Assembly: GCF_030063185.1 (NCBI RefSeq)
Contig: NZ_JASISP010000030.1
Span: 1 to 32,535, forward strand
Origin: Arthrobacter sp. H35-D1
GTDB lineage: Bacteria; Actinomycetota; Actinomycetes; Actinomycetales; Micrococcaceae
DNA length: 32,535 bases
Direction: 5' to 3'
Shown: positions 11,284 to 26,469 of the stretch, piece by piece
Layout: every line of letters begins with the position of its first letter
Numbering within the stretch: position 1 is the first letter of the stretch
The notes under the pieces: generated by a model
The model's database searches: none
Seen by the model: the letters and a program-made list of their open reading frames with translations, nothing else
What the model was told of the DNA's origin: nothing
Position numbers and translations under genes: made by a program

Positions 11284-13491
11284 ATGCCGCTGTCCCTCAC
11301 CGAAGAGCACGCCGATCTGGCTGCCGCCGTTTCTGAATTCGCTGATCGGTTCGCCGACATCCTGCAGACGCGCGAACTATTCGACGCTTACGGTGCAGGC
11401 GGCCGCCCCGCACACTGGGGCGAGCTGGTAGACAACGGACTCCACTCCCTGCACATTAGCGAGGAACGCGGAGGGCAGGGCGGCAGCGTTGCCGATACCG
11501 CGATCGTGGTTGAAGAATTTGGGCGCCGATTGGTGCCCGGACCCTATGTATCCACCGTTCTGGCCAGTGCGGCTGTGGCGGGAGCCGCCGAATGCAAGGC
11601 ATCCACGCACGGCCTGGACATCTTCGCGGAGGGGGCCACCGGGGCCTTGGTCATGCCCACCTCCGCCATCACTGCCGCAACCACCGGTGAAGGATGGACA
11701 CTGAACGGACGCGTGGAAGTGGCGTCGCTGCTTTCGGCTGAATGGCTCGTTGTCGGTTTCAATGACGGGACGGCAACCCGCTTTGCCCTTGTTGCCGCCG
11801 AGAGCGCGGGCCTGTCCAAAACGGCTGGCAGCTGCACGGACCTGACCCGCGACGCCGGAACGCTGATCCTGGACTCCCTGGAGATTAACGCCAATGACGT
11901 TTTGGCGGGCCTCGACGCGCAGCATGTTCAAACCCTGCAGGCCGGCCTGCTCGCCGCAGAGGCCGCGGGCATCATGCGCTGGGCCGTGGAAGCCACCACG
12001 GAGTACGTCAAAATCCGCGAACAGTTCGGCAAGCCCGTGGGTTCCTTCCAAGCCGTCAAGCACAAGTGCGCCAACTTGCTCATCGCCTCCGAACTGGCCA
12101 CTGCTGCCGCCTGGTCGGCGCTGGTGGCCATGGACCAGGACGCAGACCAGCAGGCGCTCGCGGCCGGCTCCGCCATTCAAGCGGGCATTGTCCCGGCAGT
12201 GGACGCGCTGACGGAGGCCGTCACCATCTTTGGCGGCATTGGCTACACCTGGGAGCACGACGCCCACCTGTACCTGCGCCGCGCCATCACCCTGGCTGCG
12301 CAGGTGGCGCCCGTCAGCGCCCGTGTGGAAGCCTTGGGTCGCGTTGCACTGAATTTGGACCGCCGCATCGACATTGAACTCCCGGATGAAGATCCCGCCT
12401 TCCGCCAGCGCATCAGTACGCTCCTTGACCAAGCCTGCGACCTGAAGAATGAGCACGACGGCGGGCGGTGGAATTCACGCGGCTCGCAACGCACATTCCT
12501 GGCCGAAAACGGGCTTGCGGCCCCGCATTGGCCGGCCCCGTACGGCCTCGGTGCCAGCCCGGCGGAGCAGGTGGTCATCGCCCAGGAATATGCTCGGCGG
12601 AAATTGACCCAGCCCTCGTCGGTCATCGGCGAGTGGGCCATGCCCACCATCCTCGCCTACGGCAGCGACACGGTGAAGGAGCAGTTTGCCCTTCCCACCC
12701 TGCGCGGCGAGCTCATCTGGTGCCAGCTGTTCTCCGAGCCCGGCGCGGGCTCCGATCTCGCTGGCCTGTCCACACGCGCCGTGAAGGTCGACGGCGGCTG
12801 GGAGCTGAAGGGGCAAAAGGTGTGGACCTCCGGGGCCCACGAGGCGGACTGGGGCATCTGCCTGGCACGCACCGACGCCGACGTGCCCAAGCACAAGGGC
12901 CTGAGCTACTTTCTCGTTGACATGCGCGCCAAGGGTGTGGACATCCGGCCACTGAAGCAGTCCACGGGCGAGGCCGAATTCAATGAGGTCTTCCTGGACT
13001 CCGTGTTCGTCCCGGACGCACTCCTGCTGGGCGAACCTGGCCAAGGCTGGCGAATCACGGCCACCACGCTGCAGAACGAGCGCACCCAGATCTCCTCCGG
13101 CGTTTCGGCCGGAACAGAAGAGTCCCTGCGCCGGCTCATCAGCGACGGCGGTTGTGCGGGCGCCGCTGACGAGGCTTACGCGGCGCTGGGCCGCATTGTG
13201 GCCGTGAGCTCCGCCATTGGCGCCCTGAACCTGCGCGAAACGCTGCGCCAGGTCAACGGTCTCCAGCCCGGAGTCGGTTCCTCCCTCGCCAAGGTTGCCC
13301 ACGCCCGGCTCTCCCGTGAAGCCGCCACGGTGGTTCTGCAACTGGCCGGACCGGCAGCCCTGTTTACCCAGGCTCCGGGGGACGCCGTGACAGGGCTGCT
13401 GGGTGTGCCCCAGGTCCTCATTGGCGGCGGCACGGTTGAAATCCAGCTCAATGTCATCGCCGAACGCATCCTTGGCCTGCCCCGGGGCTAG
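11284..13491 (+). CDS. Fused two-domain acyl-CoA dehydrogenase
   Basis: This 735-residue protein consists of two acyl-CoA dehydrogenase units joined head to tail. The N-terminal half (about 1-360) carries REQFGKPVGSFQAVKH and GGIGYTWEHD, with Glu324 in the position of the conserved acidic motif. The C-terminal half (about 370-735) carries SEPGAGSDLAG, GQKVWTSGA and a terminal GGTVEIQLN-x-IAERILGLPR. Separate paired subunits of this kind form alpha2-beta2 enzymes in actinobacteria (for example ChsE1-ChsE2 of cholesterol side-chain degradation) that oxidise bulky or branched acyl-CoAs. The fusion suggests the same active-site arrangement within one chain. The usual Arg of the EIQRN motif is Leu. 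GGAG 7 bases before the ATG supports the start. Electrons should go to the EtfBA pair encoded downstream. The substrate is not known. Confidence 0.92.
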   Translation: MPLSLTEEHADLAAAVSEFADRFADILQTRELFDAYGAGGRPAHWGELVDNGLHSLHISEERGGQGGSVADTAIVVEEFGRRLVPGPYVSTVLASAAVAGAAECKASTHGLDIFAEGATGALVMPTSAITAATTGEGWTLNGRVEVASLLSAEWLVVGFNDGTATRFALVAAESAGLSKTAGSCTDLTRDAGTLILDSLEINANDVLAGLDAQHVQTLQAGLLAAEAAGIMRWAVEATTEYVKIREQFGKPVGSFQAVKHKCANLLIASELATAAAWSALVAMDQDADQQALAAGSAIQAGIVPAVDALTEAVTIFGGIGYTWEHDAHLYLRRAITLAAQVAPVSARVEALGRVALNLDRRIDIELPDEDPAFRQRISTLLDQACDLKNEHDGGRWNSRGSQRTFLAENGLAAPHWPAPYGLGASPAEQVVIAQEYARRKLTQPSSVIGEWAMPTILAYGSDTVKEQFALPTLRGELIWCQLFSEPGAGSDLAGLSTRAVKVDGGWELKGQKVWTSGAHEADWGICLARTDADVPKHKGLSYFLVDMRAKGVDIRPLKQSTGEAEFNEVFLDSVFVPDALLLGEPGQGWRITATTLQNERTQISSGVSAGTEESLRRLISDGGCAGAADEAYAALGRIVAVSSAIGALNLRETLRQVNGLQPGVGSSLAKVAHARLSREAATVVLQLAGPAALFTQAPGDAVTGLLGVPQVLIGGGTVEIQLNVIAERILGLPRG

Positions 13492-13572
13492 GCACCGCAC
13501 CCGCCGCAGGAACCGCGCGGCGAGGAACAATCCTTCAGTAATCTAAGTTTCACCGAAAGGAACACTTTTCGC

Positions 13573-15729
13573 ATGACAACGATGACAGGCGAGGCCGCCA
13601 CATTGAAGAACCTTGACACGGCAAGGCTGAGGGAGCTTGTTGAGCCCCGAAGCATTGTGATCATCGGTGCCAACTCGAAGTCCAGCTGGTCCCACTTCAC
13701 CCATTCCAACCTCCTGGCAGGCGGCTTTGAAGGGGAGCTGTACATGGTCAACCGGCGCGGCGAGGAGTGCCACGGCCAGCCGTCTTTCACCTCGATCGCT
13801 GAACTCCCCGCCGTGCCCGATCTGGCCATTGTGCTCACCGGCGTCAACTCGTTGGAGACCATCCTTGAAGAGGCCAGGGTCAAAGGCATCCGCAACCTGG
13901 TCATGCTGGCCTCCGGCCTCGGCGAGGCCGGAGCGGAGGGTCAGGCGCTACAGGCGCGGCTCGTGGAGCTGGCCCGCGAAGCCGGCCAACTCATCCTGGG
14001 CCCGAACAACCTGGGCTTCGTGAACTCCCATGCGAAGGTAGCCGCGTTCAGCCACATGACGCAGATGCCCATGATCGCCGGAGGTGTCGGCGTGGCCAGC
14101 CAATCCGGAGCCCTGGCCATCTACCTGCTGCCGCACATGGCCTCTCGCGGGGTGGGCTGCTCTACGGCCGTCACGGTAGGCAACGAGGCCATGATCACCG
14201 CCATCGACGTCATGGACATGCTCGTTGACGACCCGGACACCCGCGTTATTGCCGCCTACCTGGAGCAAATCTCCGACCCGGGGCACTTCCTGTCCGTGGC
14301 GCAACGCGCCCGCCTGGCGGGCAAGCCCATCGTGGTGTTCAAGGCCGGGCGCGGGGAGGCCTCCGCCCGCGTGGCAGCCGCCCACACCGGCTCGCTCGTA
14401 GGAGATGACAAGATCATCGACGCCGCGTGCAGGCAGTTCGGCGTGGTGCGGGTTGACAACATCGAGGACTTGGTGGCGACTTCCGGGATCATGGAATCCC
14501 ACGGCCGGATTTCCGGCAATCGCATGGGCGTGGTGACGGGATCCGGCGCCATGTGCGCACTGATCGCCGAGAAGGCCGAGGAGGCGGGACTGGACATGCC
14601 CGCCCCTGCCGAGAACACTGTGCGGGCCCTGCACGACGCCGGCCTGCCCACGTTCTCCACCGTCAACAACCCCATGGACACCACCGGATACATCTCGGTG
14701 GACCCGACCATCATGACCAAGGCCAACCAGTGCTTCATTGACGACGACAACTTTGACTTCATCGTCATCAACAGCGGCTGGCCCATGAGTCAGCCCATGG
14801 CAGACATGGGGCGCCTGAACCAGGATGAGCTGCACCGCCAGCTGACCTCATCGCCGAAGCCCGTCATCGGCATGAGCTTCCTGCCCACCGAGGTGACCGA
14901 TTTTGGGCGTGCTTTCGCCAACGAACACGGCCTGCCGCATGCTTCGGATTCCTTTGACCGCGGCATCCCTGCCGTGGCTCGCAGCGCCTGGTGGAGCAAG
15001 CGGTCGGATGAACTCGCCAGCGACCCCGTGGTTGCACCGGCAGGCGTGATTGAGAAGCCGTCCGGTGCCGAAAGTTGGAGTGAAATTGAGGCCGGCGCGT
15101 TCCTGCGCAAGCACGGCGTTCCCTATGTTCCCGCCGCCATCGCCACGTCTGCCGCGGAGGCCGTTGCGGCGGCCGGTGACATGGGTTACCCAGTGGTCCT
15201 CAAGATCGCCTCCGAAGACATTGCGCACAAGACGGAGGTGGGCGGAGTCCGGCTCATGCTGCGCGACGCCGAGGCCGTCACCGAGGCGTACAACTTCATT
15301 ATGGCCTCCGTGGCAGATCTCGCCCCAGAGGCGCACATCCAGGGTGTGGCCGTCTCGCCCATGCGGCCCGCCGGGAACGAACTGCTCGTGGGAATTGTCC
15401 GGGACCCGCACTGGGGACTGGTGCTCGCCGTCGGATTTGGCGGCGTCATGGTGGAGATCCTCAAGGACTCCGCACTGCGCCTGCTGCCCGTGGGGCCGGC
15501 CGAGATCCGCCGCATGCTCGAATCCCTCAAGGGCATTGACCTGCTGACAGGTTTTCGCGGAAATGCCGCGACGGACCTGGACAAGCTGGCCGAGACCATC
15601 TTCCGGATTTCACAGGTGGCAGTGGGTCTCGGCGACGAGCTCGAAGAGCTGGAAATCAACCCGCTGCGTGTAGCCGGCGACGAGATTGAGGCGCTCGACG
15701 CCCTGATCCGTTGGAAGGACAAGTCATGA
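13573..15729 (+). CDS. ADP-forming acyl-CoA ligase (acetate-CoA ligase family)
   Basis: The 718-residue protein has the domain order of single-chain ADP-forming acyl-CoA synthetases: an N-terminal CoA-binding domain (about 20-120), succinyl-CoA-ligase-like domains (about 150-460) with the likely phosphohistidine His271 in AAAHTGSL, and a C-terminal ATP-grasp domain (about 500-715) with GYPVVLKIASEDIAHKTEVG and LEELEINPLRV. It activates a carboxylic acid to its CoA thioester with ATP giving ADP and phosphate. Relatives include feruloyl-CoA synthetase FerA of Sphingobium and acetyl-CoA synthetases, so the acid could be aromatic or aliphatic. A GAAAGGA about 11 bases before the ATG supports the start. 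It follows the dehydrogenase by 81 bases with no terminator between, and probably belongs to the same transcript as the activation step. Confidence 0.9.
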   Translation: MTTMTGEAATLKNLDTARLRELVEPRSIVIIGANSKSSWSHFTHSNLLAGGFEGELYMVNRRGEECHGQPSFTSIAELPAVPDLAIVLTGVNSLETILEEARVKGIRNLVMLASGLGEAGAEGQALQARLVELAREAGQLILGPNNLGFVNSHAKVAAFSHMTQMPMIAGGVGVASQSGALAIYLLPHMASRGVGCSTAVTVGNEAMITAIDVMDMLVDDPDTRVIAAYLEQISDPGHFLSVAQRARLAGKPIVVFKAGRGEASARVAAAHTGSLVGDDKIIDAACRQFGVVRVDNIEDLVATSGIMESHGRISGNRMGVVTGSGAMCALIAEKAEEAGLDMPAPAENTVRALHDAGLPTFSTVNNPMDTTGYISVDPTIMTKANQCFIDDDNFDFIVINSGWPMSQPMADMGRLNQDELHRQLTSSPKPVIGMSFLPTEVTDFGRAFANEHGLPHASDSFDRGIPAVARSAWWSKRSDELASDPVVAPAGVIEKPSGAESWSEIEAGAFLRKHGVPYVPAAIATSAAEAVAAAGDMGYPVVLKIASEDIAHKTEVGGVRLMLRDAEAVTEAYNFIMASVADLAPEAHIQGVAVSPMRPAGNELLVGIVRDPHWGLVLAVGFGGVMVEILKDSALRLLPVGPAEIRRMLESLKGIDLLTGFRGNAATDLDKLAETIFRISQVAVGLGDELEELEINPLRVAGDEIEALDALIRWKDKS

Positions 15730-15768
15730 AAGCCGCTGAACGCGTCTGCTTCAAGGCCCGGTGGTAGC

Positions 15769-15781
15769 GTTGGTAACCAAC
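15769..15781 (+). promoter_or_regulatory. Palindrome GTTGGT-A-ACCAAC before the TetR gene
   Basis: A perfect 6-bp inverted repeat around a single A lies 25 bases before the TetR start codon. Its sequence is unlike the palindromes at 11194 and 22451, so it may be a separate autoregulatory site or belong to another regulator. A GATATA sequence at 15784 could be the -10 of a tetR promoter, but no good -35 is visible. Confidence 0.45.
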
Positions 15782-15806
15782 CGGATATATACGCAGGAGG
15801 CGAACC

Positions 15807-16421
15807 ATGACCGGAGTGCTATCTGGGGAAAGGATCCAGCTTCCCGCCTATCAAAAGCTGCGACGGCAACGGATTCTGGATGCGGCGAAATCGCTGCTGC
15901 GCAACCACGAGTACGAATCGATCCAGATTCGCGACGTCGCAGCGGAATCGAACGTCGCCCTGGGAACGCTCTACAGGTACTTCTCCTCGAAGGAACACCT
16001 GTATGCGAATGTCGTGTACGACTGGAGCCTGCCGTTCAACGCGGCGGAGCCGGCGCAGGCGGCGAACCTCAACACGATCGAGTGCATCTCCCGGCGGCTG
16101 CGCATGGCGTTGGCTGCGTTCGAACGGCAGCCGAATTTCTACAAGGCCATTCTGATGCTGCGCTCCACGAACGATCCGGACGTCGCGGCGCTCATGCAGC
16201 AACTTGGCACGGTGCTCGAGGAACCTATTCTCTCGGACCTTTCCATGCTGCCACCGGACGAGGCCTCGGACATTACGGCCATGGTCTGGTGCGTCTTGAT
16301 GGACCTGGTCGCCAGACTGCTGTCCGGAGACAAGACCATGGACGAGGCGCTGCGGATCTCGGACAGGTTCGTGCAGATGGTCGGCTTGCGGCTGGCGCAG
16401 TTCGAGGCCGAAACCGCGTAG
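15807..16421 (+). CDS. TetR family transcriptional regulator, KstR-like
   Basis: This 204-residue protein has a TetR DNA-binding domain at about residues 18-65, with the recognition region IRDVAAESNVALGTLYRYFSSKEHLYANVV. The C-terminal half (about 70-204) is the ligand-binding domain and recalls KstR-type regulators, which sense CoA thioesters of sterol or fatty-acid breakdown. AGGAGG 6 bases before the ATG gives a strong start. It lies in the middle of the catabolic block, so it most likely represses these genes and is released by a pathway acyl-CoA. The matching palindromes in the promoters at 11194 and 22451 are candidate targets. An activator role cannot be excluded. Confidence 0.9.
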   Translation: MTGVLSGERIQLPAYQKLRRQRILDAAKSLLRNHEYESIQIRDVAAESNVALGTLYRYFSSKEHLYANVVYDWSLPFNAAEPAQAANLNTIECISRRLRMALAAFERQPNFYKAILMLRSTNDPDVAALMQQLGTVLEEPILSDLSMLPPDEASDITAMVWCVLMDLVARLLSGDKTMDEALRISDRFVQMVGLRLAQFEAETA

Positions 16422-16458
16422 CCGCCCCACCGGCCATGCCCTGCCAGGAGGTGGCGGC

Positions 16459-17280
16459 ATGAGCGCCCACGAGCTCGACCACCTGGCCATCGCGGTCCCT
16501 TCATGGGCACCGGCCGGTGAGGCCCTGAACCGCGAGCTGGGCGCCCGGTGGGCCAGCGGCTTCCGCATGGAAGCTTTCAACCCCTGCCAGCTGGCCGTGG
16601 CCGATGACATGAGGCTGGAGCTGCTGGAACCGGGGAGCGGGGAGCACTCGTTCATCCAACGCTTCCTTTCCGAGAATGACGGCCAGGCGGCCCCCCATCA
16701 CATCACGTTCAAGGTCCATGACATCCGGGCGGCCATTGCCGGAGCGCAAAGGGCCGGGATCGAGCCGATCCTGGTGAACCTGGAGCACCCCCAATGGCAG
16801 GAGGCGTTCCTGCATCCCCGGGACACGGGCCTGGGCTTCCTGGCCCAGATGGTGCAGGCGCCGCAGAGCGTGGAAGAGATCACCGGCACGGACGACGGCG
16901 GCGGCCTCGCCTGCCCGTGGGAACAGAACGGCAGTGCACCCCTGCGGATTCCGCTTATTTATGGAAACGTTGCACATTTGTCCCAGGCCGGGGCTGTCCT
17001 GCGCGACGTGCTTGGCGCCCGGGAGTACTCCACCGGCATGGGCACCACAACTGCCCGCTTCCACTGGGACGAGGGCGCCGATTTGCTGCTGTCAGAGGTG
17101 GGCCACAGCTCCGGAAATAGCGGAATCCAAGGAATCCTGGCCCTCCCGGCAGACGCGGGCGGCTCGCCTCGGGACGTCCCGGAACGCCTGCCCGCCGTGC
17201 TGGCCGCGGGAGGAGACCATCCCGAGATCGGCTTGAGAATCTCAGTCCTGCAGCACACCCCGGCCGGCGCAGGCTCGTAG
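16459..17280 (+). CDS. VOC (glyoxalase/methylmalonyl-CoA epimerase-like) protein
   Basis: This 273-residue protein has an N-terminal VOC unit (about 1-135) similar to methylmalonyl-CoA epimerases and a more diverged C-terminal half (about 155-260) that may be a second VOC unit. His8 (DHLAIAV) and His80/81 (PHHITFKV) match the two histidine metal ligands. In methylmalonyl-CoA epimerase the other two ligands are Gln and Glu; here the aligned positions appear as Glu54 (LELLEP) and Gln130 (FLAQMVQ), so they look exchanged. It may epimerise or isomerise a CoA intermediate, or bind one without catalysis. AGGAGG 6 bases before the ATG supports the start. It lies between the TetR gene and the thiolase-like gene and is probably co-transcribed with them. 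Confidence 0.8.
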   Translation: MSAHELDHLAIAVPSWAPAGEALNRELGARWASGFRMEAFNPCQLAVADDMRLELLEPGSGEHSFIQRFLSENDGQAAPHHITFKVHDIRAAIAGAQRAGIEPILVNLEHPQWQEAFLHPRDTGLGFLAQMVQAPQSVEEITGTDDGGGLACPWEQNGSAPLRIPLIYGNVAHLSQAGAVLRDVLGAREYSTGMGTTTARFHWDEGADLLLSEVGHSSGNSGIQGILALPADAGGSPRDVPERLPAVLAAGGDHPEIGLRISVLQHTPAGAGS

Positions 17281-17383
17281 CAGCAGCCGCCGCACGTCCA
17301 CGCAACCACCAACAGATCACCATCCCGTGCACCCAAAAACAGGTGCAGACGATGAAAACGAACGAATATTTGAGGAGATCACC

Positions 17384-18589
17384 ATGGGCCTTCGAGGAGA
17401 AGCCGCAATCCTTGGCTTTTACGAATTGCCGCCGGAGCGCAAACTTGCCCGCGAAAAAACCTTCAACCTGGAACAGTGGGCCAGGCTATCCAAGGCCGCA
17501 CTCGATGACGCCGGGCTGGATGCGACGGATGTGAACGGCATCGTCACCCCCCTGATCGGTGAAGCCAGCATGTTTGTGCCGTCCACCATCACCGAATACC
17601 TGGGCATCGATGCCAACTTTGCCGAGATCGTCGACCTGGGCGGGGCAGGCTCCGCCGCCGCCGTCTGGCGCGCCGCGGCCGCCGTCGAACTTGGCTTGTG
17701 CGACGCCGTCCTGGTCACGTTCCCCGGGACGCACGAGGTGCCCACCCACGAGCGCCGCCCGTTCGTCATGGAGGATTCCATGTACTTTGGCGCCTCCTCC
17801 AACCAATACGGCTCCCCGCAGGCGGAATTTGAAATTCCGTATGCAAACCTTGGACAGAACGGTCCCTACGGCCAGATCGCCAAACGCTACGGCTACGAGT
17901 TTGGCTACGACGAGCTGGCCATGGCGAAGATTGCCGTGGACCAGCGCACCAACGCCTGCGCCACGCCGGGGGCAGTTTTCCACGGCAAGCCCATCACGGC
18001 ACAAGACGTCCTGGACTCACCGATGGTCGCCGACCCGCTGCACATGCTGGAAATTGTGATGCCTTGCCAGGGCGGCGCCGCCGTCGTGATTGGCAACAAG
18101 GACATGGCGGCCAAGTCAAAGAACCGGCCCGTCTGGATCAAGGGCTTTGGCGAGCGCGTCCCCTACAAGACGCCCACCTACGCCAAGGACCTCATGTACT
18201 CGCCCATGGTCCATGCGGCGGATCAGGCGTTCTCCATGGCCGGGATCAGCCGTGACGACGTGGACATGGTCTCCATCTACGACTGCTACTCCATCACCGT
18301 GCTCATGAGCCTGGAGGATGCCGGCTTTACCGAAAAGGGGAAGGGCATGCAGTTCGTGAACGAGCACGACCTCACGTTCCGCGGCGACTTCCCCATGAAC
18401 ACGGCCGGCGGCCAGCTGTCCTTTGGGCAGGCGGGCATTGCCGGCGGCATGCATCACGTGATCGACGGCGCCCGCCAGATCATGGGGCGTGCCGGCGAGG
18501 CGCAGGTTGCGGACTGCAACCGCGCCTTTGTCACGGGCAACGGCGGCATCATGAGCGAGCAAACAGCACTGATTTTCGAAGGGGAATAG
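17384..18589 (+). CDS. Thiolase-like (SCP2/Ltp2-type) protein lacking the nucleophilic Cys
   Basis: This 401-residue thiolase-fold protein belongs to the lipid-transfer/acetyl-CoA acetyltransferase branch. Where true thiolases have the nucleophilic Cys, it reads VDLGGAGSAAAVW (about 84-95) with no Cys. Other family segments are intact: FHGKPI (His200), IYDCYSITVL (Tyr299, Tyr302), NTAGGQLSFGQAG (about 339-351) and a C-terminal GNGGIMSEQ. Ltp2-type proteins of steroid breakdown have this form and act as retro-aldolases using tyrosines, together with a DUF35 partner. Such a partner is encoded next. I infer C-C cleavage of a beta-hydroxyacyl-CoA to a carbonyl compound plus acetyl- or propionyl-CoA. 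The ATG at 17384, with GAGGAG 7 bases upstream, is preferred to the upstream GTG at 17327. Thiolytic activity is unlikely but not excluded. Confidence 0.87.
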   Translation: MGLRGEAAILGFYELPPERKLAREKTFNLEQWARLSKAALDDAGLDATDVNGIVTPLIGEASMFVPSTITEYLGIDANFAEIVDLGGAGSAAAVWRAAAAVELGLCDAVLVTFPGTHEVPTHERRPFVMEDSMYFGASSNQYGSPQAEFEIPYANLGQNGPYGQIAKRYGYEFGYDELAMAKIAVDQRTNACATPGAVFHGKPITAQDVLDSPMVADPLHMLEIVMPCQGGAAVVIGNKDMAAKSKNRPVWIKGFGERVPYKTPTYAKDLMYSPMVHAADQAFSMAGISRDDVDMVSIYDCYSITVLMSLEDAGFTEKGKGMQFVNEHDLTFRGDFPMNTAGGQLSFGQAGIAGGMHHVIDGARQIMGRAGEAQVADCNRAFVTGNGGIMSEQTALIFEGE

Positions 18590-18598
18590 GAACACACC

Positions 18599-19030
18599 AT
18601 GAGCACCACTTACACACCGCCGGTCTTCACCCAGCCGCTTCCGGTCCCAACTCCGCTGACCCAGCCCTTTTGGGACGCACTGGCTGAGCACAAGGTCCGC
18701 ATCCAGTACTCCCCGTCGCTGGGCGAATACATCTTCTACCCCCGCCCGCTGGCACCGCGCACGCTGGCCGACGACCTTCAATGGCGGGAGATCTCCGGCG
18801 CCGGAACGCTGTACACATACACCATCACCACACGGCCGGTGTCGCCGCACTTTGCCGCGGCGGGCCCCATGGTCCTGGCCGTTGTGCAGTGGGACGAGGG
18901 TCCCAAGTTCTCCACAGAGCTTGTCAACGTTCCCTTCGAGGACGTGAAGATCGGCATGCGCGTCAAGCCTGTTTTCTGCGACTACCCCGAAGCGGGCGTC
19001 ACCATGCTCCGCTACGAAGCGGAGGCCTGA
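18599..19030 (+). CDS. DUF35/OB-fold acyl-CoA-associated protein
   Basis: This 143-residue protein has the DUF35 layout: N-terminal helix (TQPFWDALAEHKVRIQY), a short rubredoxin-like zinc-ribbon region (about 37-57) and an OB-fold (about 62-140) containing GAGTLYTYTIT and AAAGPMVLAVVQWDEGP. DUF35 proteins pair with thiolase-fold enzymes and are needed for their activity, as in the Ltp2 aldolase and benzoylsuccinyl-CoA thiolase complexes. Here the zinc-ribbon cysteines are absent: the segment reads YSPSLGEYIFYPRPLAPRTL, so zinc binding is probably lost. The only Cys is far downstream in VFCDYPE. It starts 9 bases after the thiolase-like gene and ends 1 base before the aldehyde dehydrogenase start, so all three should be co-translated. 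Confidence 0.87.
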   Translation: MSTTYTPPVFTQPLPVPTPLTQPFWDALAEHKVRIQYSPSLGEYIFYPRPLAPRTLADDLQWREISGAGTLYTYTITTRPVSPHFAAAGPMVLAVVQWDEGPKFSTELVNVPFEDVKIGMRVKPVFCDYPEAGVTMLRYEAEA

Positions 19031-19031
19031 G

Positions 19032-20513
19032 ATGGTTGCCGTGACCGAAGAGAAGCAGCCCGAATTCGTGCTGCCGGAAGTGACCCTGCGCATTGGTTCC
19101 ACCGCACGCGCCACGGGTTCCGGAAGCCACCAACACATCAACCCGGCCACGGGAGTCCCGGACGCCGCTGTGCCGTTGGCCAGCGCCGCCGATGTTGACG
19201 ACGCCGTCCAAAACGCCCATGCGGCATTTTCAGTGTGGAAGGCGACGCCTGCCGTCCAGCGAGGGCGGGCCCTGCTGAAGCTGGCCGACCTCGTTGAAGA
19301 CCACACCGCAGAGTTCGCGGCCCTGGCCACTGCAGACAACGGCACCCCGGCAGGGACCGCACAGCTGATGGTGGCCGCCGCGGCCGAGTGGATCCGCTAC
19401 TACGGAGGCTGGGCCGACAAGTTGCCGCTGGGCCGTGTCACGTCGGTGGCCGGTGCCGGTGGTTCCTTTGGGCACACGCTGCGCCAGCCCTACGGCGTCA
19501 TCGGCATTATTATCACGTGGAACGCGCCGCTCATGTCGCTGGCCATGAAGGTGCCGGCCGCGTTGGCGGCCGGCAACACCGTGGTGGTGAAGCCTAGCGA
19601 ATTGACCCCGTTCAGCGCCATGCTCTTTGCCGACCTCATCCGCAAGGCCGGCATTCCCGACGGCGTGTTCAACGTTGTCACCGGCGGCGCCGAAGCCGGC
19701 TCCTCCCTCGTGGCCCACCCGCTCGTCAAAAAAGTTTCGTTCACGGGAGGCCCCGACACGGCACGCAAGATCACGGCCGAGTGCTCCCAGACGTTCAAAC
19801 CCGTCCTGCTGGAGCTGGGCGGAAAATCAGCAAACCTGGTGTTTGCCGACGCGGACCTCGAGGCGGCCGCCCTGCACGCGGCCTTCATGGCGTTTGGCGT
19901 CATGACCGGCCAAGGCTGCGCACTGCCCACGCGGCTGCTGGTGCAGGATTCCATTTACGAAGAGTTCGCGGCCAGGGTGGCTGCCATTGCCGGCTCGCTC
20001 AAGGTGGGCAGCCCGCTGGAGCTGGACACCGTCTGCGGACCTGTCATCAACCAGGCCGCCATCGACCGCATCGAGGCCATGGTGGCCCAGGCCCGGAACG
20101 ACGGCGCCCGCGTCCTGACGGGCGGCACCCGCCTGGGCGGGGAACTGGCCGACGGCTACTACTACCCGCCGACAGTGGTGGCGGACGTGGACCGGCAGAG
20201 TGAACTGGCCCGGCAGGAAGTCTTCGGCCCTGTCCTGGCCGTCCTGCGCTTTAGCGACGAAGCAGATGCCGTGACCTTGGCCAACAGCACCGACTACGGC
20301 CTCTCAGGCTATCTGTGGACGTCGGACGCCAAACGCGCCATGCGCGTCGTCGAAGCGCTGGAAACCGGTGAAGTGGTGGTCAACGGCGCACCCAACGCGG
20401 TGGCCGAGCGCCCCTTCGGCGGCATTGGCCACTCCGGCAACGGCAACGAAGGCGGCTTGGAAGGACTCGAGGAGTTCTTCTGGACCAAGTCCGTCGCCTA
20501 CGGCGCCAACTAG
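19032..20513 (+). CDS. NAD(P)-dependent aldehyde dehydrogenase
   Basis: This 493-residue aldehyde dehydrogenase has the family catalytic set: Asn164 (TWNAP), Glu261 (LELGGKS), Cys296 (GQGCALPTR), and the coenzyme segments KPSELTP and FTGG. It oxidises an aldehyde to the acid with NAD+ or NADP+. Glu rather than Lys preferences for the coenzyme cannot be settled from sequence. The start lies 1 base after the DUF35 stop, so it is tightly coupled to the thiolase-like/DUF35 pair. That coupling suggests it removes the aldehyde that a retro-aldol cleavage would release, as vanillin dehydrogenase does after feruloyl-CoA hydratase/aldolase. The true substrate is unknown. Confidence 0.93.
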   Translation: MVAVTEEKQPEFVLPEVTLRIGSTARATGSGSHQHINPATGVPDAAVPLASAADVDDAVQNAHAAFSVWKATPAVQRGRALLKLADLVEDHTAEFAALATADNGTPAGTAQLMVAAAAEWIRYYGGWADKLPLGRVTSVAGAGGSFGHTLRQPYGVIGIIITWNAPLMSLAMKVPAALAAGNTVVVKPSELTPFSAMLFADLIRKAGIPDGVFNVVTGGAEAGSSLVAHPLVKKVSFTGGPDTARKITAECSQTFKPVLLELGGKSANLVFADADLEAAALHAAFMAFGVMTGQGCALPTRLLVQDSIYEEFAARVAAIAGSLKVGSPLELDTVCGPVINQAAIDRIEAMVAQARNDGARVLTGGTRLGGELADGYYYPPTVVADVDRQSELARQEVFGPVLAVLRFSDEADAVTLANSTDYGLSGYLWTSDAKRAMRVVEALETGEVVVNGAPNAVAERPFGGIGHSGNGNEGGLEGLEEFFWTKSVAYGAN

Positions 20514-20539
20514 GCGACCGGTCCAAACTGCTTCTCCCT

Positions 20540-20625
20540 TTTTGACCCACGGCGCACCGCGCAACGGTGTGCCGTGGGGAAGCGTGTCAAAATCGCCTGC
20601 GCTGCCTTATGCGGCAGTGCAGGCG
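20540..20625 (+). terminator. Two consecutive large hairpins after the aldehyde dehydrogenase
   Basis: The first hairpin pairs CCCACGGCGCACCG (20546-20559) with 20565-20578 over 14 bp with one G-U pair, and the flanks TTTTGA and TCAAAA (around 20540 and 20587) could extend it across a bulge. The second pairs CGCCTGCGCTGCC (20594-20606) with 20613-20625 over 13 bp with one G-U pair. Neither is followed by a T-run. They may end the upstream operon, stabilise its 3' end, or form a leader before the transporter gene. Confidence 0.6.
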
Positions 20626-20671
20626 AGGAACGGTCGGCACAACACCATCGTGTTCGTCCGCCGTACCAAAG

Positions 20672-20686
20672 AATGTTCGTTACATT
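20672..20686 (+). promoter_or_regulatory. Inverted repeat AATGT-N5-ACATT upstream of the MFS gene
   Basis: AATGT (20672-20676) and ACATT (20682-20686) form a perfect 5-bp inverted repeat 66 bases before the transporter start. It is unlike the palindromes at 11194 and 22451. It is a possible operator, but it is short enough to be chance. Confidence 0.3.
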
Positions 20687-20751
20687 GCCCGCCGATTCCG
20701 TGAGGGCACAACCACTTTCTTTTCAGCACACCCAAGAAAGGCTGGACGAAG

Positions 20752-22251
20752 ATGTCCTTCGCTAACCTCCGGAAAACCGGACCCCTGCAAAACCTCAAAC
20801 GGCCCGGATTCGCCGCCGTGGTGACAGTTCTCATCCTGGCCGAGGTTGTCTCGGCCTTCGAACTGTCCATGATGTACGTAACGCTGCCCACGCTGATCAA
20901 GGAATTCCACGTTGATGCCAGCACGGTGGCCTGGGTCGTCACGGCCTACCTGCTGGTTTCCGCTTCCGCCGGTGTCATGGGCGGGCGTTTCGGCGACATG
21001 TACGGCCGTCGGAAGGTCATGGTTATCGTCTTGATGATCGCCTGCGCCGGCTCAGTGATCTCCCTGATCGGCGGCAGCCTGGGCATGATCATCCTGGGCC
21101 GTGCGATCCAGGGCACGGCCGGTGCCTTGATGGGGCTGGCCTTTGGGCTGGCACGCGAACACATGGCCAAGGAACGCGTCCCCGTGGGCGTCTCCATGAT
21201 CGGAGCCTCGGCCCTGATCGCAGGCGCAGGAGGCGCACTCATTGCCGGCATCATGATCCAGCTCTTCACCTGGCACCTGATCTTCATCTTCTCCGCAGTG
21301 CTTGCCGTGATTTCCGCAGCGGCCATCATGGCTGTCATTCCCCGCGACACACTGATCCCCAGCAAGGACAAACCCGACTACCTCGGCGCCGTCCTGCTGC
21401 CGATCGCCGTCAGCGCCATCCTGCTGGCACTTTCCAACGTCTCGAAGACCGGCTTTGGCTCGGTCGAGTTCCTTGGCCTGATGGCCGTGGGAATCGTCGT
21501 CGCGGCCGTATGGGGTTGGTGGGAACTGCGCATCGAGTCTCCCATTGTGAACCTGAGGATGTTCAAGAACCGCCAGATCGCCCTCGTGATGACGGCCACC
21601 ATGCTCGCTGCCCTCGGCCCCATCGGAGGCATGTCCGTCCCCACCCAAATGGTTCTGCAGTACCCCACGGTGATGGGCTTTGGCTTGGGCTTCACCCCGG
21701 CGGCGGCCGGTATTTTCAGCGCACTGACGGCCGTTGTCGGCTACCTTTTCTCGCCATTGGGCGGCAAGCTGGCGTTCCGCTTCGGCGCACGCTCGGTCTT
21801 CATTGGCGGACTCACCCTCATGGCAGTCGTCATACCCGTCATCCTTCTCACCTACGGCAACGTGCTGACATTCTGCCTGGCCATGGCGCTGAACGGCATT
21901 GGCATCTCGTTGACGTTCGGCGCCCTGCCCAATGTGCTCATTGAAGCCATCCCGGAAACCCACACCTCGGAAACAGCCGGAACCAACACGATGGTCCGCA
22001 ACATCGGCCAGTCCGCGGCCACGGCCATCGGAGCCATCATCCTTGCCAGTTACCAGAACCCGGAGACCACCGTGGTGGCCCAGGGCGGCATCAGCGCAAG
22101 CTTTGTCTTCGTGCTCGTGTTCGCTGTGCTGGCCGTTGCCGTTGCCCTGCTCCTGAAGCGCCACCCCGTGCAGTGGGTCCCGGAAACAACGCAGGAACGT
22201 GCCATCCGGCGCGGAACGCCGGCCCAGGTTCCCGTGCTGGCCGCCGACTGA
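20752..22251 (+). CDS. MFS transporter, DHA2-like (14 helices)
   Basis: The 499-residue product has about 14 hydrophobic segments, as in the DHA2 branch of the major facilitator superfamily. The loop after helix 2-3 carries GGRFGDMYGRRKVMV (residues 77-91), the family motif A, and IILGRAIQGTAGALMG follows in helix 4. DHA2 proteins are mostly proton-driven drug or metabolite exporters. In this block it may take up the substrate or export a toxic intermediate; direction cannot be told from sequence. GAAAGG 10 bases before the ATG supports the start. It is separated from the aldehyde dehydrogenase by two hairpins and followed by a strong hairpin, so it may be transcribed alone. Confidence 0.9.
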   Translation: MSFANLRKTGPLQNLKRPGFAAVVTVLILAEVVSAFELSMMYVTLPTLIKEFHVDASTVAWVVTAYLLVSASAGVMGGRFGDMYGRRKVMVIVLMIACAGSVISLIGGSLGMIILGRAIQGTAGALMGLAFGLAREHMAKERVPVGVSMIGASALIAGAGGALIAGIMIQLFTWHLIFIFSAVLAVISAAAIMAVIPRDTLIPSKDKPDYLGAVLLPIAVSAILLALSNVSKTGFGSVEFLGLMAVGIVVAAVWGWWELRIESPIVNLRMFKNRQIALVMTATMLAALGPIGGMSVPTQMVLQYPTVMGFGLGFTPAAAGIFSALTAVVGYLFSPLGGKLAFRFGARSVFIGGLTLMAVVIPVILLTYGNVLTFCLAMALNGIGISLTFGALPNVLIEAIPETHTSETAGTNTMVRNIGQSAATAIGAIILASYQNPETTVVAQGGISASFVFVLVFAVLAVAVALLLKRHPVQWVPETTQERAIRRGTPAQVPVLAAD

Positions 22252-22335
22252 ACCGCTGCCAACTGAAGCGTCCCGACTGAACCGCCGCTGCCTGAATCAC
22301 CGCGCCTGTGCTGCTCGGAACGCAGCGCAGCGGAC

Positions 22336-22387
22336 CACGAGGCGCCCTGCCGGCCTCCCCGCTCGGGGGCCGGCTGGGCGCCTCGTG
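22336..22387 (+). terminator. Long-stem hairpin after the MFS gene
   Basis: CACGAGGCGCCC (22336-22347) pairs with 22376-22387; past a T/T mismatch, GCCGGCC pairs with GGCCGGC, and inner CCCCG pairs with CGGGG around a CT loop. The stem is about 24 bp with small interruptions. There is no T-run, so it may act as a transcript-end stabiliser or Rho-assisted terminator. Confidence 0.7.
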
Positions 22388-22443
22388 TCATCCAGCGGGT
22401 TCGGCCCAATGCAGGGATGGACGAAACTCGCGCGGCCCAACCA

Positions 22444-22471
22444 TGGACAAGAACTAGAATCTCGTTATAGT
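22444..22471 (+). promoter_or_regulatory. Promoter with operator-like palindrome before the hydratase-ETF operon
   Basis: TGGACA (22444-22449) and TATAGT (22466-22471), 16 bases apart, each match 5 of 6 consensus bases, making this the best promoter in the window. The spacer contains GAACTAGAATCTCGTTA (22451-22467), which matches 13 of 17 positions of the perfect palindrome before the dehydrogenase gene at 11194, keeping the ACTAGA and TCT core. A repressor bound here would cover both promoter elements. This links the two operons to a common regulator. Confidence 0.7.
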
Positions 22472-22552
22472 ATTTAATACGTAGTGATCCAAGCCACCCC
22501 CCGGGTGGCCGTCTGAATCGTTGGGGGACATCCCCGTGAAAGGAGCAGGGCA

Positions 22553-23446
22553 GTGGCGATCCACATGCACAACATTGGGAAGACGAATGAGGGGGAACCC
22601 TTCTCCTGGACGTCAAAAGATGCACTCCTGTATGCGCTGAGCGTGGGCGCCGGTGCCGGGGACCAGACACGTAACCTGGCCTTCACCACTGAGAACTCGC
22701 GCGGCATCGAGCAAAAGGTCCTGCCCACGTTCGCGGTGGTGCTCGGCTCGTCGTCGGGGCCCATGGATGAGCTGGGCGACTTCAAACTCTCGCAGATCCT
22801 GCATGGCGGCCAGCAGATCACACTGCACCAGGCCTTGGCAGCCAGCGGAACCGTGATCCCTGTCAGCGGCATGAGCGCCGTGTATGACAAGGGAAAGAAC
22901 GCGGTCATCGAGCTGAGCACGGAACTGCTGGACGCACAGACCCGCGAACCCGTGGCCACGAGCGTGACCACCATGATCATTCGCGGCGAGGGTGGCTTCG
23001 ACGGGCCAAAGGGTCCGTCCGAAAGCTGGGAGGTTCCGGACCGCCCGGCCGATGTGACGGTCGTGGAGAAAACCACCCTTGACCAGGCCCTCCTCTACCG
23101 TCTTAACGGCGACACGAACCCGCTCCATTCGGACCCGCAGCTTGCCAAGATGGTCGGCTTCGACAAGCCGATCCTCCACGGCCTGTGCACCATGGGCTTT
23201 GCCGGACGGGTACTCCTGGAGCAAGTCTGCGGATCGGAGCCGGGGACATTCGGCTCGCTCAGCGTCCGCTTCGCTGCACCCGTAGTGCCCGGCGACGAAC
23301 TGGCCATCAGCATCTGGAAGACCGAAACCGGCGCAGTGTTTCAAGTCCGGGTCGCGGACACCGTCGTCCTGGACCGGGGCACCTACACGCACCGCACCGC
23401 CGAAGCGGGCGGCACCACCGAAGTACTAGAAGCAGCCACGGCCTAG
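22553..23446 (+). CDS. MaoC family enoyl-CoA hydratase (hydratase 2 type)
   Basis: This 297-residue protein has two hot-dog domains: an N-terminal MaoC-like half (about 1-150) and a catalytic C-terminal half (about 165-285). The hydratase-2 motif is complete: YRLNGDTNPLHSDP with catalytic Asp187 and His192, followed by GFDKPILHGLCTMG. It resembles the hydratase of peroxisomal MFE-2 and actinobacterial MaoC/ChsH-type hydratases, giving (R)-3-hydroxyacyl-CoA. In this pathway it would add water to the enoyl-CoA made by the fused dehydrogenase. The GTG at 22553 has AGGAG 8 bases upstream; an in-frame ATG at 22565 is an alternative. It heads an operon with etfB, etfA and a cytochrome b. Confidence 0.93.
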   Translation: MAIHMHNIGKTNEGEPFSWTSKDALLYALSVGAGAGDQTRNLAFTTENSRGIEQKVLPTFAVVLGSSSGPMDELGDFKLSQILHGGQQITLHQALAASGTVIPVSGMSAVYDKGKNAVIELSTELLDAQTREPVATSVTTMIIRGEGGFDGPKGPSESWEVPDRPADVTVVEKTTLDQALLYRLNGDTNPLHSDPQLAKMVGFDKPILHGLCTMGFAGRVLLEQVCGSEPGTFGSLSVRFAAPVVPGDELAISIWKTETGAVFQVRVADTVVLDRGTYTHRTAEAGGTTEVLEAATA

Positions 23447-23471
23447 GGCCGTCCGGACGGGAAGAAAAGCC

Positions 23472-24242
23472 ATGAAGATTGCAGTACTGATCAAGCAGGT
23501 CCCAGACACCGGCGAGGACAGGTTGCTCGCCGCCTCCGGCGCCGTCGACCGGTCCGCCAGCGACCGGGTTGCCGACGAGATCACCGAGCGTGCACTGGAA
23601 ATTGCGTTGCGCGAAAAGGATGCCGACAAGTCGGTGGAGATCGTGGCCGTCACGATGGGCCCCGGCACGGCCACGGAAGCGCTGCGCAAGGCGCTCTCCA
23701 TGGGGGCCGACTCGGCCATCCACGTCATCGACGACGCCTTTGCAGGCTCCGATGCCCTCACCACCGCCAAGGCCCTCGCCGGTGCGGTGCAGGGCGGCGG
23801 CTTTGACCTCGTCGTTGCCGGCAACGAGTCCACCGACGGCCGCGGCGGCGTTGTGCCGGCCATGGTTGCCGAACTCCTGCAGCACCCATACCTGGGCTCG
23901 ATGGACACTGTTGCCATCGACCAGGGCAGCGTGTCCGGGCAGCGCCGGGACGCCGAAAGCATCCAGACGCTGGCCGGACGCCTCCCGGCGGTCGTGTCCA
24001 TCACCGAGAGTTCAGCCGAGGCACGATTCCCCAAGTTCAAGGGCATCATGACCGCCAAGCGCAAGCCCATGGCCGTTGTCAACGCCGCGGAGGTTGGCCA
24101 TTCGGCCTCCAGTCACGCAAACGGCAACGTGGTCCTGTCCGCAAGCCTGCGCCCCGCCCGGGCAGCCGGCCTGAAGGTCGTCGACGACGGAACCGCCGCC
24201 ACCCAGCTCGCTGACTTCCTCAGCGCCGAAAACCTGATCTGA
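23472..24242 (+). CDS. etfB: Electron transfer flavoprotein beta subunit
   Basis: The 256-residue protein starts with [17 protein letters not shown] and carries [17 protein letters not shown] and [15 protein letters not shown], all typical of EtfB (FixA-like). Together with EtfA it forms the soluble flavoprotein that takes electrons from acyl-CoA dehydrogenases. Its position between the hydratase and etfA in one operon, sharing an operator-like sequence with the fused dehydrogenase gene, suggests it is dedicated to this pathway. Actinobacteria usually have another etfBA pair elsewhere. Confidence 0.95.
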
Positions 24243-24256
24243 AAGGGCTGCCCATC

Positions 24257-25243
24257 ATGAGCAACATTCTTGTCAACATCGAACTTGCAGCGGACGGATC
24301 GCTGCGCTCCACCACGGCCCACCTGCTCAGCCTGGCAGCACGCCTCGGCGAGCCCGTCGCCGTACTGGCCGCACCCCCGGGAGCCTCTGCTGAACTCGTC
24401 GCCGAACTGGGCGGGCTGGGGGCGGCGGCGATCGTGGTCGGTGAGTGCCCGGCGTCGTCAAATCTTGTCGCAGCCGCATCGGTGGCCGCACTGGCCGACG
24501 CCATCACCAGCCATGCGCCCGCTGCCGTGTTGGCCTCCACGAGCCCGACGGCGCGCGAAGTCATTGGCCGCCTCGCAGTCCGTACCGGCCACGCCGTGAT
24601 GGTCGACGCCGTTGACATCGCCATGGACGGTGACCGGGTCGTGGCGAGCCATTCGATCTTCGGCGGTAGCTACACGACGGAATCCGGTGTTGGCGCAGGC
24701 ATCGCGCTGGTCACCGTCTCCTCCAGCGGCTCCGAGCCTGCCCCGGCCGTTGCCTCACCCATGGTGGAGGTGCGCCAGCTGGAAGTTTCCACCCAGGCAG
24801 CCGCAGCCATCACGGCCGCAGAGGTTGCCTCGACGGGCTCGGGTCGCCCGGAGCTACGGTCGGCTCGCATTGTGGTTTCGGGAGGCCGTGGCCTGGGCTC
24901 GAAGGAAAACTTCGTGCTGGTTGAGGAACTGGCGGACATGCTGGGGGCCGGATTGGGGGCATCCCGTGCAGCAGTCGACGCCGGGTACGTCCCGCAGGGC
25001 TGCCAGGTCGGCCAAACAGGTATCAGCGTTTCGCCCGAGCTGTACCTTGCCGTGGGCATCTCCGGCGCCATCCAGCACCGGGCCGGCATGCAGACGGCCA
25101 AGCGGATCGTGGCCATCAACGAAGACGCCGACGCCCCGATCTTCGACGTCGCCGACTTTGGCATCGTCGGGGACCTGTTCACGGTCCTGCCCCAGCTGCG
25201 GGAGGCCATTGCAGCACGCAGCGGCGTTCCCGCGGGCGTCTAG
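24257..25243 (+). CDS. etfA: Electron transfer flavoprotein alpha subunit
   Basis: The 328-residue EtfA has an N-terminal domain (about 1-190) that is more diverged and a C-terminal FAD domain (about 200-325) with [14 protein letters not shown] (207-220), [12 protein letters not shown] (249-260), ISGAIQH (268-274) and [10 protein letters not shown] (287-296). These bind the FAD that accepts electrons from the dehydrogenase. It follows etfB by 14 bases. The downstream cytochrome b gene starts 12 bases after its stop, suggesting a direct electron-transfer relationship. Confidence 0.95.
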
Positions 25244-25255
25244 GGAGGTTGGCCG

Positions 25256-26278: not shown

Positions 26279-26286
26279 GATACGTG

Positions 26287-26374
26287 CGGAAGGTAAGAGA
26301 TTCGAACTCTTGGTACGGGGTTACCGCACACTGGTTTTCAAGACCAGCTCCATCGGCCGCTCGGACAACCTTCC
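26287..26374 (-). tRNA. tRNA-Ser (anticodon UGA)
   Basis: The minus strand folds into an 88-base class II tRNA: acceptor arms GGAAGGT and CCTTCC-side pairing, D-arm CCGAGCGGCC, anticodon arm CTGGT-CTTGAAA-ACCAG with anticodon TGA, a long variable arm, and T-arm GAGTTCGAATCTC. The discriminator base is G and CCA is not encoded in the template (CAC follows). It reads UCA and related serine codons. Confidence 0.96.
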
Positions 26375-26469
26375 TAACCCTAGTAGTGTTTCATAGGCAG
26401 GGCGGTGCTACCAAAATGGGTGCCCATGCAGCTAAGATTCACGGGTACTTGCAGGCAATGGAGAAGGTT

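Follow-up and report, generated by a model that had tools for sequence, protein, structure and literature searches.

The window analysed here comprises 32,535 bases, an entire contig of the 4.46 Mb genome (86 contigs) of Arthrobacter sp. H35-D1, and open reading frame (ORF) translations and family model searches revealed within it a single plus-strand unit of 12 genes (positions 11284-26197, Table 1). The original prediction had described genes for an acyl-CoA ligase, a fused acyl-CoA dehydrogenase (ACAD), a MaoC hydratase, a Cys-less thiolase-fold protein with a DUF35 partner, an aldehyde dehydrogenase (ALDH) and EtfBA on one strand between 11284 and 25243. All of these are present on the plus strand, but the unit continues to 26197 with a cytochrome b561-like gene and also includes TetR, VOC and MFS genes that had not been listed. 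A GC3-based caller placed 11 of the 12 genes at the positions in Table 1 and gave the thiolase-fold gene an alternative start upstream; the ATG at 17384 is the most likely start of this gene, and (M)GLRG is the N-terminus in its relatives.

Table 1. Genes of the unit in the window, and cytochrome b561-like genes directly after EtfBA in side-chain modules of two other loci.
Feature	Position	Strand	Basis
Fused ACAD, two ACAD halves, 735 residues	11284..13491	+	family models, PDB sequence matches
ADP-forming acyl-CoA ligase	13573..15729	+	Succ_CoA_lig and ATP-grasp_5
TetR-type regulator	15807..16421	+	TetR_N, 47.4 bits
VOC protein, N-terminal half weakly like methylmalonyl-CoA epimerase	16459..17280	+	family models
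Sal-type aldolase, thiolase fold	17384..18589	+	9MYR match, catalytic residues, Pfam Thiolase_C_1
DUF35 (OB_ChsH2_C) partner without zinc-ribbon ligands	18599..19030	+	Pfam, 9MYR_B match
ALDH with Cys296 and Glu261	19032..20513	+	family models, motif; Sad counterpart proposed
MFS transporter	20752..22251	+	nearest named model EmrB/DHA2, 124 bits, under its cut-off of 230
Double-MaoC (MFE-2 type) enoyl-CoA hydratase	22553..23446	+	GDTNPLHSDP motif
EtfB	23472..24242	+	family models
EtfA	24257..25243	+	family models
Cytochrome b561-like membrane protein, directly after EtfBA	25256..26197	+	26.6 bits, under the Pfam cut-off of 30.1
Cytochrome b561-like protein, directly after EtfBA, locus L125	16010..16951
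Cytochrome b561-like protein, directly after EtfBA, locus L123	13582..14520

A search for conserved synteny, which had been proposed as a check, found all 12 genes in unchanged order in five of 22 other genomes of the genus (G003, G005, G009, G020 and G021), as well as in Paeniglutamicibacter antarcticus (L026) and a Paenarthrobacter (L027), so the gene set is not a chance assembly. Altered forms occur in Glutamicibacter protophormiae (L028) and in an Arthrobacter metagenome-assembled genome (L029), where the VOC gene was not found and the MaoC, EtfBA and cytochrome b561 genes are divergently oriented. Together with the window genome, these are the 10 Micrococcaceae carriers considered below; loci L019 and L025 belong to one genome, which is counted once among the carriers, yet both rows are in the alignment and tree. 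Six of the 23 same-genus genomes, the window's included, encode the aldolase at 93% identity or more. The ALDH gene is part of the unit in all 10 carriers, and the window shares with each of the nine loci compared those motifs of the ACAD, ligase, ALDH and MaoC proteins that we take to be catalytic.

The thiolase-fold protein groups by sequence with the bile-acid aldolase Sal rather than with Ltp2. Its best match among solved structures was 9MYR_A (450.7 bits), followed by a second match at 162.8 bits, and Ltp2 (6OK1) scored 111 bits. 9MYR_A is CtSal, the aldolase of the bile-acid C5 side chain from Comamonas testosteroni (PMC12329534; this and all papers below are cited from excerpts of their text). 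In CtSal, Tyr302 and Cys304 are catalytic, Gln347 and Gln352 are activating, Gln161 and Gly391 form the oxyanion hole, and a Gly occupies the position of the thiolase nucleophile (PMC12329534). An alignment, in which the CtSal numbering was verified by YDCY landing at 302, indicated that Gly89, Gln161, Tyr302, Cys304, Gln347, Gln352 and Gly391 are all kept in the window aldolase, with Gly87 at the nucleophile position, Tyr299 and Cys301 within YDCY, and Gln344 and Gln349. Gly87 also aligns with the Cys of the acetyltransferase 7YVY. The protein should therefore not work as a classical thiolase; being a normal thiolase would have undone the predicted chemistry. The earlier description as Cys-less holds for the nucleophile, whereas the second, catalytic Cys of Sal is present and Cys301 is the predicted general acid. 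Similarly, the proposed likeness to Ltp2 stands as far as a thiolase-fold aldolase with a DUF35 partner is concerned, but Sal is the nearest characterised relative: in place of the YDHF motif and second Tyr (Tyr344) of Ltp2, the window protein has YDCY and, at the site that PMC12329534 equates with Tyr344, a Gln. One scan of genome contigs, which yielded at least 80 loci, used two peptide patterns, one with YDCY, so conservation of this motif in those 80 loci is partly selection; the window, the genome-search loci and the plasmid matches are free of this bias.

These residues make retro-aldol chemistry at the locus likely, and they bear on the alternative of ordinary beta-oxidation, in which a hydroxyacyl-CoA dehydrogenase and a thiolase from elsewhere would finish the pathway and the thiolase-like gene would have another role. 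Known actinobacterial C5 routes do use a dehydrogenase and a thiolase (PMC11321319, PMC8399759), but the intact Sal residues, the Gly at the nucleophile position and the constant presence of the ALDH gene in the unit make this extremely unlikely. As predicted, neither a 3-hydroxyacyl-CoA dehydrogenase nor a thiolase with a nucleophilic Cys was among the window frames scanned, a set that did not include every frame or the genome elsewhere.

From gene content and order, protein families, catalytic residues and distribution, we infer a pathway (reactions, substrate, electron route and direction of transport alike) in which the unit is a self-contained module that takes a steroid acid, such as a bile acid or another C24 acid, and removes acetyl-CoA from its C5 carboxylic side chain by retro-aldol cleavage; we put the probability of this reading at about 60%. 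The ligase would form the C24-acyl-CoA, which the fused ACAD would convert to the 22-ene; the electrons released would enter the dedicated EtfBA, with the cytochrome b561-like protein as their probable next acceptor. Hydration of the 22-ene by the double-MaoC protein would give a 22-hydroxyacyl-CoA, Sal and DUF35 would cleave this to a C22 aldehyde and acetyl-CoA, and the ALDH would convert the aldehyde to a C22 acid that the MFS protein may export. The predicted sequence of activation, desaturation, hydration, retro-aldol cleavage and oxidation is thus supported by homology and conserved catalytic residues. Of the two acyl-CoA products originally considered, acetyl-CoA fits Sal and a C5 side chain, while propionyl-CoA belongs to Ltp2 and a C3 side chain. 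The observations of the original prediction are confirmed and its interpretation is partly supported.

The N-terminal half of the ACAD matches 6WY8_A and 4X28_D and its C-terminal half 6WY8_B and 4X28_A, the two subunits of heteromeric ACADs that we take to be steroid α2β2 enzymes. The Glu of 'nhErv' in 4X28_A has its aligned counterpart in Glu599 of the ACAD, and His271 of the AHTGS motif is conserved in the ligase, both of which are presumably catalytic. The hydratase matches 3KHP (234 bits). The fusion of DUF35 to a single MaoC domain that defines Shy does not occur in the window, where DUF35 and double-MaoC are separate proteins. The ALDH, which we propose to be the counterpart of Sad, had HpaE (414 bits, cut-off 638) and StyD (379 bits, cut-off 850) among its best NCBIfam models. 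These aromatic-pathway models bear on the phenylpropanoid substrates that had been listed alongside terpenoid and steroid side chains. A phenylpropanoid pathway (dihydrocinnamoyl-CoA to cinnamoyl-CoA to an aryl aldehyde plus acetyl-CoA) would have an identical reaction order, and ferulate is a substrate of ADP-forming ligases in some sphingomonads. However, no ALDH match reaches its cut-off, amine-aldehyde and semialdehyde dehydrogenase models score similarly, the nearest solved relative of the aldolase is a steroid enzyme and an Ltp2 module adjoins the unit in Glutamicibacter. Phenylpropanoid catabolism is therefore very unlikely, and a steroid is favoured among the original substrate classes.

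The EtfBA of the unit is one of two electron transfer flavoprotein (ETF) pairs in the genome. Around the second pair, EtfB and EtfA were the only window genes with a match and the next frame is not b561-like; that contig ends 1.4 kb downstream. The ubiquinone-binding model of ETF-QO had no match in the genome, which is weak evidence because only Escherichia coli and Caulobacter matched among 14 controls. Four His residues (77, 128, 237 and 251) of the cytochrome b561-like protein are conserved across the window and nine loci, and the protein has no PDB relative at E values up to 1. In G005, the C5 module and the Ltp2-containing C3 module each have their own EtfBA and b561-like protein. This protein may plausibly serve as a dedicated step from ETF to quinone. 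For the MFS protein, we propose export of the trimmed product or, alternatively, import. The VOC protein, in which a His is conserved, may epimerise a CoA thioester or aldehyde of the pathway.

Three lines of comparative evidence point to a steroid acid: the activity of the tested Sal relatives on steroids, the C3 module of Glutamicibacter, and the Ltp2 modules of G005 and Paeniglutamicibacter. In G. protophormiae, the C5 module runs from the ACAD at 74264 to the MFS gene at 85092, followed by MaoC at 88403. Directly after it come genes for TetR, ACADa, ACADb, a second MFS protein and a CasI-like ligase, and then MaoC, a zinc-ribbon DUF35, MaoC, Ltp2, a 4HBT thioesterase, EtfBA and cytochrome b561. 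The Ltp2 orthologue is well supported (PRK07855, 653 bits, cut-off 469; 6OK1, 578 bits), and the window protein is about 30% identical to it. The best family for the C3-module ligase is the steroid-22-oyl-CoA synthetase CasI (601 bits). By its gene content, the Ltp2 module of Glutamicibacter corresponds to the next round of the steroid side-chain pathway. Orthologues of this Ltp2 occur in like modules, apart from the C5 module, at 97% identity in G005 and 95% in Paeniglutamicibacter (L026), where the module extends to the contig end. Ltp2 is thus found in three of the 10 carriers and in one of 23 same-genus genomes, itself a carrier; in G007 and G018, relatives reach no more than 32-34% identity. 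As a separate observation, the Glutamicibacter C5 module is split between its MFS and MaoC genes (85092 to 88403) by four called minus-strand frames, which had no match to the reference genes used.

Genes for degradation of the steroid nucleus are mostly missing from the carriers. KshA_C was not found in nine of the 10, and matches to KstD (NF005882) and HsaC (NF045631) did not exceed 32.4 bits in these nine, although the KstD and HsaC models gave matches over their cut-offs in two mycobacterial controls. The exception is G. protophormiae, which has KshA_C and homologues of KstD and HsaC. These lie on a contig other than that of the module, so the expectation that KshA would stand beside the cluster was ruled out (KshA on contig C5, cluster on C2). 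KshA_C was also present in all six other Sal-clade carriers tested (L030, L034, L042, L055, L090 and L103). The window genome had no KshA_C match, KstD and HsaC scores of 28.3 and 28.9 bits that do not indicate a 9,10-seco degrader, and no detectable Ltp2 orthologue, so no gene that was searched for would process the product further. By content, the C5 module stands alone in seven carriers and is accompanied by a C3 module in two, and one carrier adds ring genes to both modules. In the nine, either the nucleus is left after the side chain is trimmed, or it is attacked via genes unseen by the models, or the substrate is not a steroid.

The first of these options would amount to side-chain-only steroid catabolism, a tentative idea that we consider somewhat less probable than its negation: Arthrobacter-like soil bacteria would partly live on bile-acid side chains and release the intact nucleus as C22 acids or 17-ketosteroids via the module's MFS protein. 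With similar reservation, their gain would be acetyl-CoA from aldol chemistry, plus propionyl-CoA where the Ltp2 module is present. If true, this would feed ring degraders and add hormone-like steroids to soil.

Several findings weigh against a steroid C5 module. The scarcity of strong KshA, KstD and HsaC matches in nine of 10 carriers and of Ltp2 orthologues in seven of 10 is odd for a steroid pathway, and in G. protophormiae itself KstD (574 bits) and HsaC (329 bits) fall under the curated cut-offs of 788 and 450, as does its CasI match (cut-off 900). The best models for the ACAD (pimeloyl-CoA dehydrogenase large subunit, far under its cut-off) and for the ALDH (HpaE) are non-steroid, the VOC protein has no explained place in the scheme, Arg216 of CtSal, a CoA contact, is Pro in the window aldolase, and all Cys ligands of a Cys3His1 zinc ribbon are gone from the window DUF35. 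Finally, no member of the bile-salt hydrolase family was found in 14 genomes, the 10 carriers included. The species A. simplex has since been moved to another taxonomic placement. According to PMC11736000, Arthrobacter citreus from bison has a bile-salt hydrolase; cholate metabolism by members of Arthrobacter is also cited there, the older strains being A. simplex. Arthrobacter has been counted among the putative steroid-degrading genera, with the exception of A. gangotriensis, which was without a majority of reciprocal hits (PMC4810484).

Part of this evidence would equally suit the same chemistry acting on a non-steroid substrate, namely a terpenoid or other alicyclic acid whose aliphatic side chain would be trimmed, with steroid use in Glutamicibacter and mycobacteria being a separate specialisation. 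The missing ring-degradation matches fit this alternative, and the pocket may differ where the DUF35 is zinc-free. Elsewhere in the Sal clade, members adjoin FMO-like flavoenzymes (taken for Baeyer-Villiger enzymes), short-chain dehydrogenases annotated as mycofactocin-coupled, CoA transferases or ABC transporters, and these varied neighbours imply that the clade probably diversified. However, the module is contiguous with the Ltp2/CasI-like module in Glutamicibacter, an Ltp2 module accompanies it in both G005 and L026, and Sal (80-98% identical to the window protein across Micrococcaceae) is more conserved than neighbours such as the ACAD (51-93%), which argues against recent re-targeting. 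We regard a non-steroid substrate as rather unlikely.

The DUF35 partner is related to that of CtSal despite its altered ribbon. The gene adjoins that of the aldolase, consistent with a Sal-type pair as judged from sequence and model; 9MYR_B was the best solved sequence match (104 bits) and the closest structure to its AlphaFold model (template modelling score 0.83), with 6OK1 next. This model has a mean predicted local distance difference test (pLDDT) score of 87, the weakest blocks being residues 51-60 (66), 1-10 (70) and 41-50 (75), and the ribbon region is among its lowest-pLDDT parts. A Pfam scan did not list the zinc-ribbon model zf-ChsH2 for the window protein, while the model matched the Ltp2-linked DUF35 of Glutamicibacter and a Vibrio protein. 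DUF35 sequences were obtained for 89 of 91 Sal rows, and ligand Cys residues are absent from 86 of these (two with one off-column Cys), being retained only in CtShy, one Vibrio and one Mesorhizobium sequence. Zinc is bound by four Cys in the compared homologues, whereas CtShy uses three Cys and one His, a ligand set conserved in Shy proteins, and its ribbon shapes the cleft for the bile-acid steroid (PMC12329534). As known homologues hold zinc and the CtShy ribbon shapes the cleft, the ligand-free clade represents a real difference, of which we found no description in the excerpts or among the literature matches listed.

The reaction scheme is not a new pathway type, as proteobacterial bile-acid catabolism already provides it: Pseudomonas Chol1 and Comamonas are established to degrade the C5 side chain in this way (PMC8399759, PMC11321319, PMC12329534). 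The module shares with that pathway (StdA1, Scd1AB, Shy1, Sal1 and Sad) a ligase, an ACAD, a hydratase, a Sal aldolase with DUF35, and an ALDH, as well as the Gly replacing the thiolase Cys and the YDCY motif. It differs in having a fused ACAD and a double-MaoC hydratase in place of Scd1AB and Shy, a stand-alone DUF35 without zinc ligands, an ADP-forming ligase, its own EtfBA and cytochrome b561-like protein, and carriers of which nine in 10 yielded no ring markers. The single-chain ACAD and double-MaoC hydratase are instead shared with the actinobacterial C5 route (CasC ACAD, ChsH3/CasD hydratase, a dehydrogenase and the FadA5/CasB thiolase), in which CasC is a fusion protein; that route ends by oxidation and thiolysis, whereas aldol cleavage is proposed here. 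Actinobacterial C5 hydratases (ChsH3, CasD and CasQ) are fused double-MaoC proteins, while proteobacterial Shy combines DUF35 with one MaoC domain (PMC11321319). Given its ACAD and double-MaoC types and its Sal-type aldolase, the module joins an actinobacterial front end to a Sal/Sad-like back end, and this junction, together with the DUF35 without zinc ligands, is what is new. The steroid C3 aldolase Ltp2-ChsH2(DUF35) (6OK1) is likewise a thiolase-superfamily aldolase with DUF35, but relies on YDHF and Tyr344 chemistry, has a four-Cys zinc ribbon (PMC12329534) and releases propionyl-CoA from a C3 side chain.

A tree of 91 Sal rows, whose outgroup rows are affected by long branches, placed the Micrococcaceae in a single clade (100/99) that joins mycobacterial clades, one with an adjoining fused ACAD, although weakly (91/62); members with split ACAD and MaoC genes form a clade apart (99/97). 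Identity to CtSal is 53-56% for the fused-ACAD mycobacterial rows; in the same table, the plasmid match L024 is only 44-45% like either of the proteins compared. In M. neoaurum, Atf1 is 56% identical to Sal1 and atf1 deletion blocked formation of the C22 product 4-HBC (PMC10398937). From these identities and its gene content, this HBC operon (atf1, chsH4, chsE6 and kstR3) appears to be the nearest tested relative by clade, with a Sal-type aldolase, stand-alone DUF35, ACAD and TetR in common with the window unit. The excerpt of PMC10398937 names no ligase, ALDH, Etf or transporter in the operon, all of which the window unit has, and the operon reduces the aldehyde to 4-HBC where the window unit is proposed to oxidise it. 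Locus L090 (7040-13154) encodes a divergent TetR, a fused ACAD, Sal, DUF35 and an amidohydrolase in this order, and it and similar mycobacterial loci resemble the HBC operon. If an L090-type locus is the HBC operon, this suggests that ChsE6 is not an aldehyde reductase but an ACAD that precedes Atf1 in the pathway, which would explain why ChsE6 gave no aldehyde conversion in PMC10398937.

If the steroid reading is correct, the C5 aldol route is not solely proteobacterial, and exists as an actinobacterial 12-gene kit that can occur without ring-degradation genes. Surveys requiring KshA and HsaC, as in PMC4810484, would miss such bacteria, which would be candidates, with their genes, for the source of C22 steroid acids in manured soils; cross-feeding would be predicted. 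An aldolase pair without zinc-ribbon ligands may also have a pocket that accepts other steroids, and could be used for C22 aldehyde synthons. No paper on the Micrococcaceae cluster appeared among the literature matches listed (titles and abstract openings, open-access only).

Other Sal-like loci were also observed. In a second Sal clade (including L021, L036, L039, L042 and L055), the neighbouring ACAD and MaoC genes are split; an FMO-like (Baeyer-Villiger-like) flavoenzyme is often encoded there too, as are CoA transferases in some cases, and the clade probably applies the same aldol step to another substrate. A Vibrio alfacsensis plasmid (L023, 9122-13178) carries a Sal-like gene, a zinc-ribbon DUF35-MaoC fusion and an annotated long-chain acyl-CoA synthetase, with a gene annotated as coniferyl aldehyde dehydrogenase nearby; by sequence, this is a plasmid-borne Shy/Sal-like set. 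A relative of the window aldolase (43% identity) is encoded on Rhodococcus jostii RHA1 plasmid NC_008269.1 (843903-845066), in contrast to a review excerpt stating that a Sal1 homologue is missing from RHA1 and that none of Sad lies near its cholate cluster, where a thiolase is indicated (PMC8399759).

The unit is followed by a tRNA-Ser and a zinc-type dehydrogenase gene both in the window and in four (L015, L017, L018 and L019) of the five same-genus relatives. They were not found in the available stretch past the unit in L016, L026 and L027, so they are regarded as flank rather than members of the unit; this edge is not displayed for L028 and L029. The listed GTG start of the dehydrogenase frame (26284-27453) overlaps the opposite-strand tRNA-Ser, and the true start is probably further in. 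On the other side, the minus strand at 5725-10800 encodes a 1691-residue protein with lamin-tail, Exo_endo_phos, metallophosphatase and 5'-nucleotidase domains, a relative of which adjoins the module, in parts, in L015, L017, L018 and L019.

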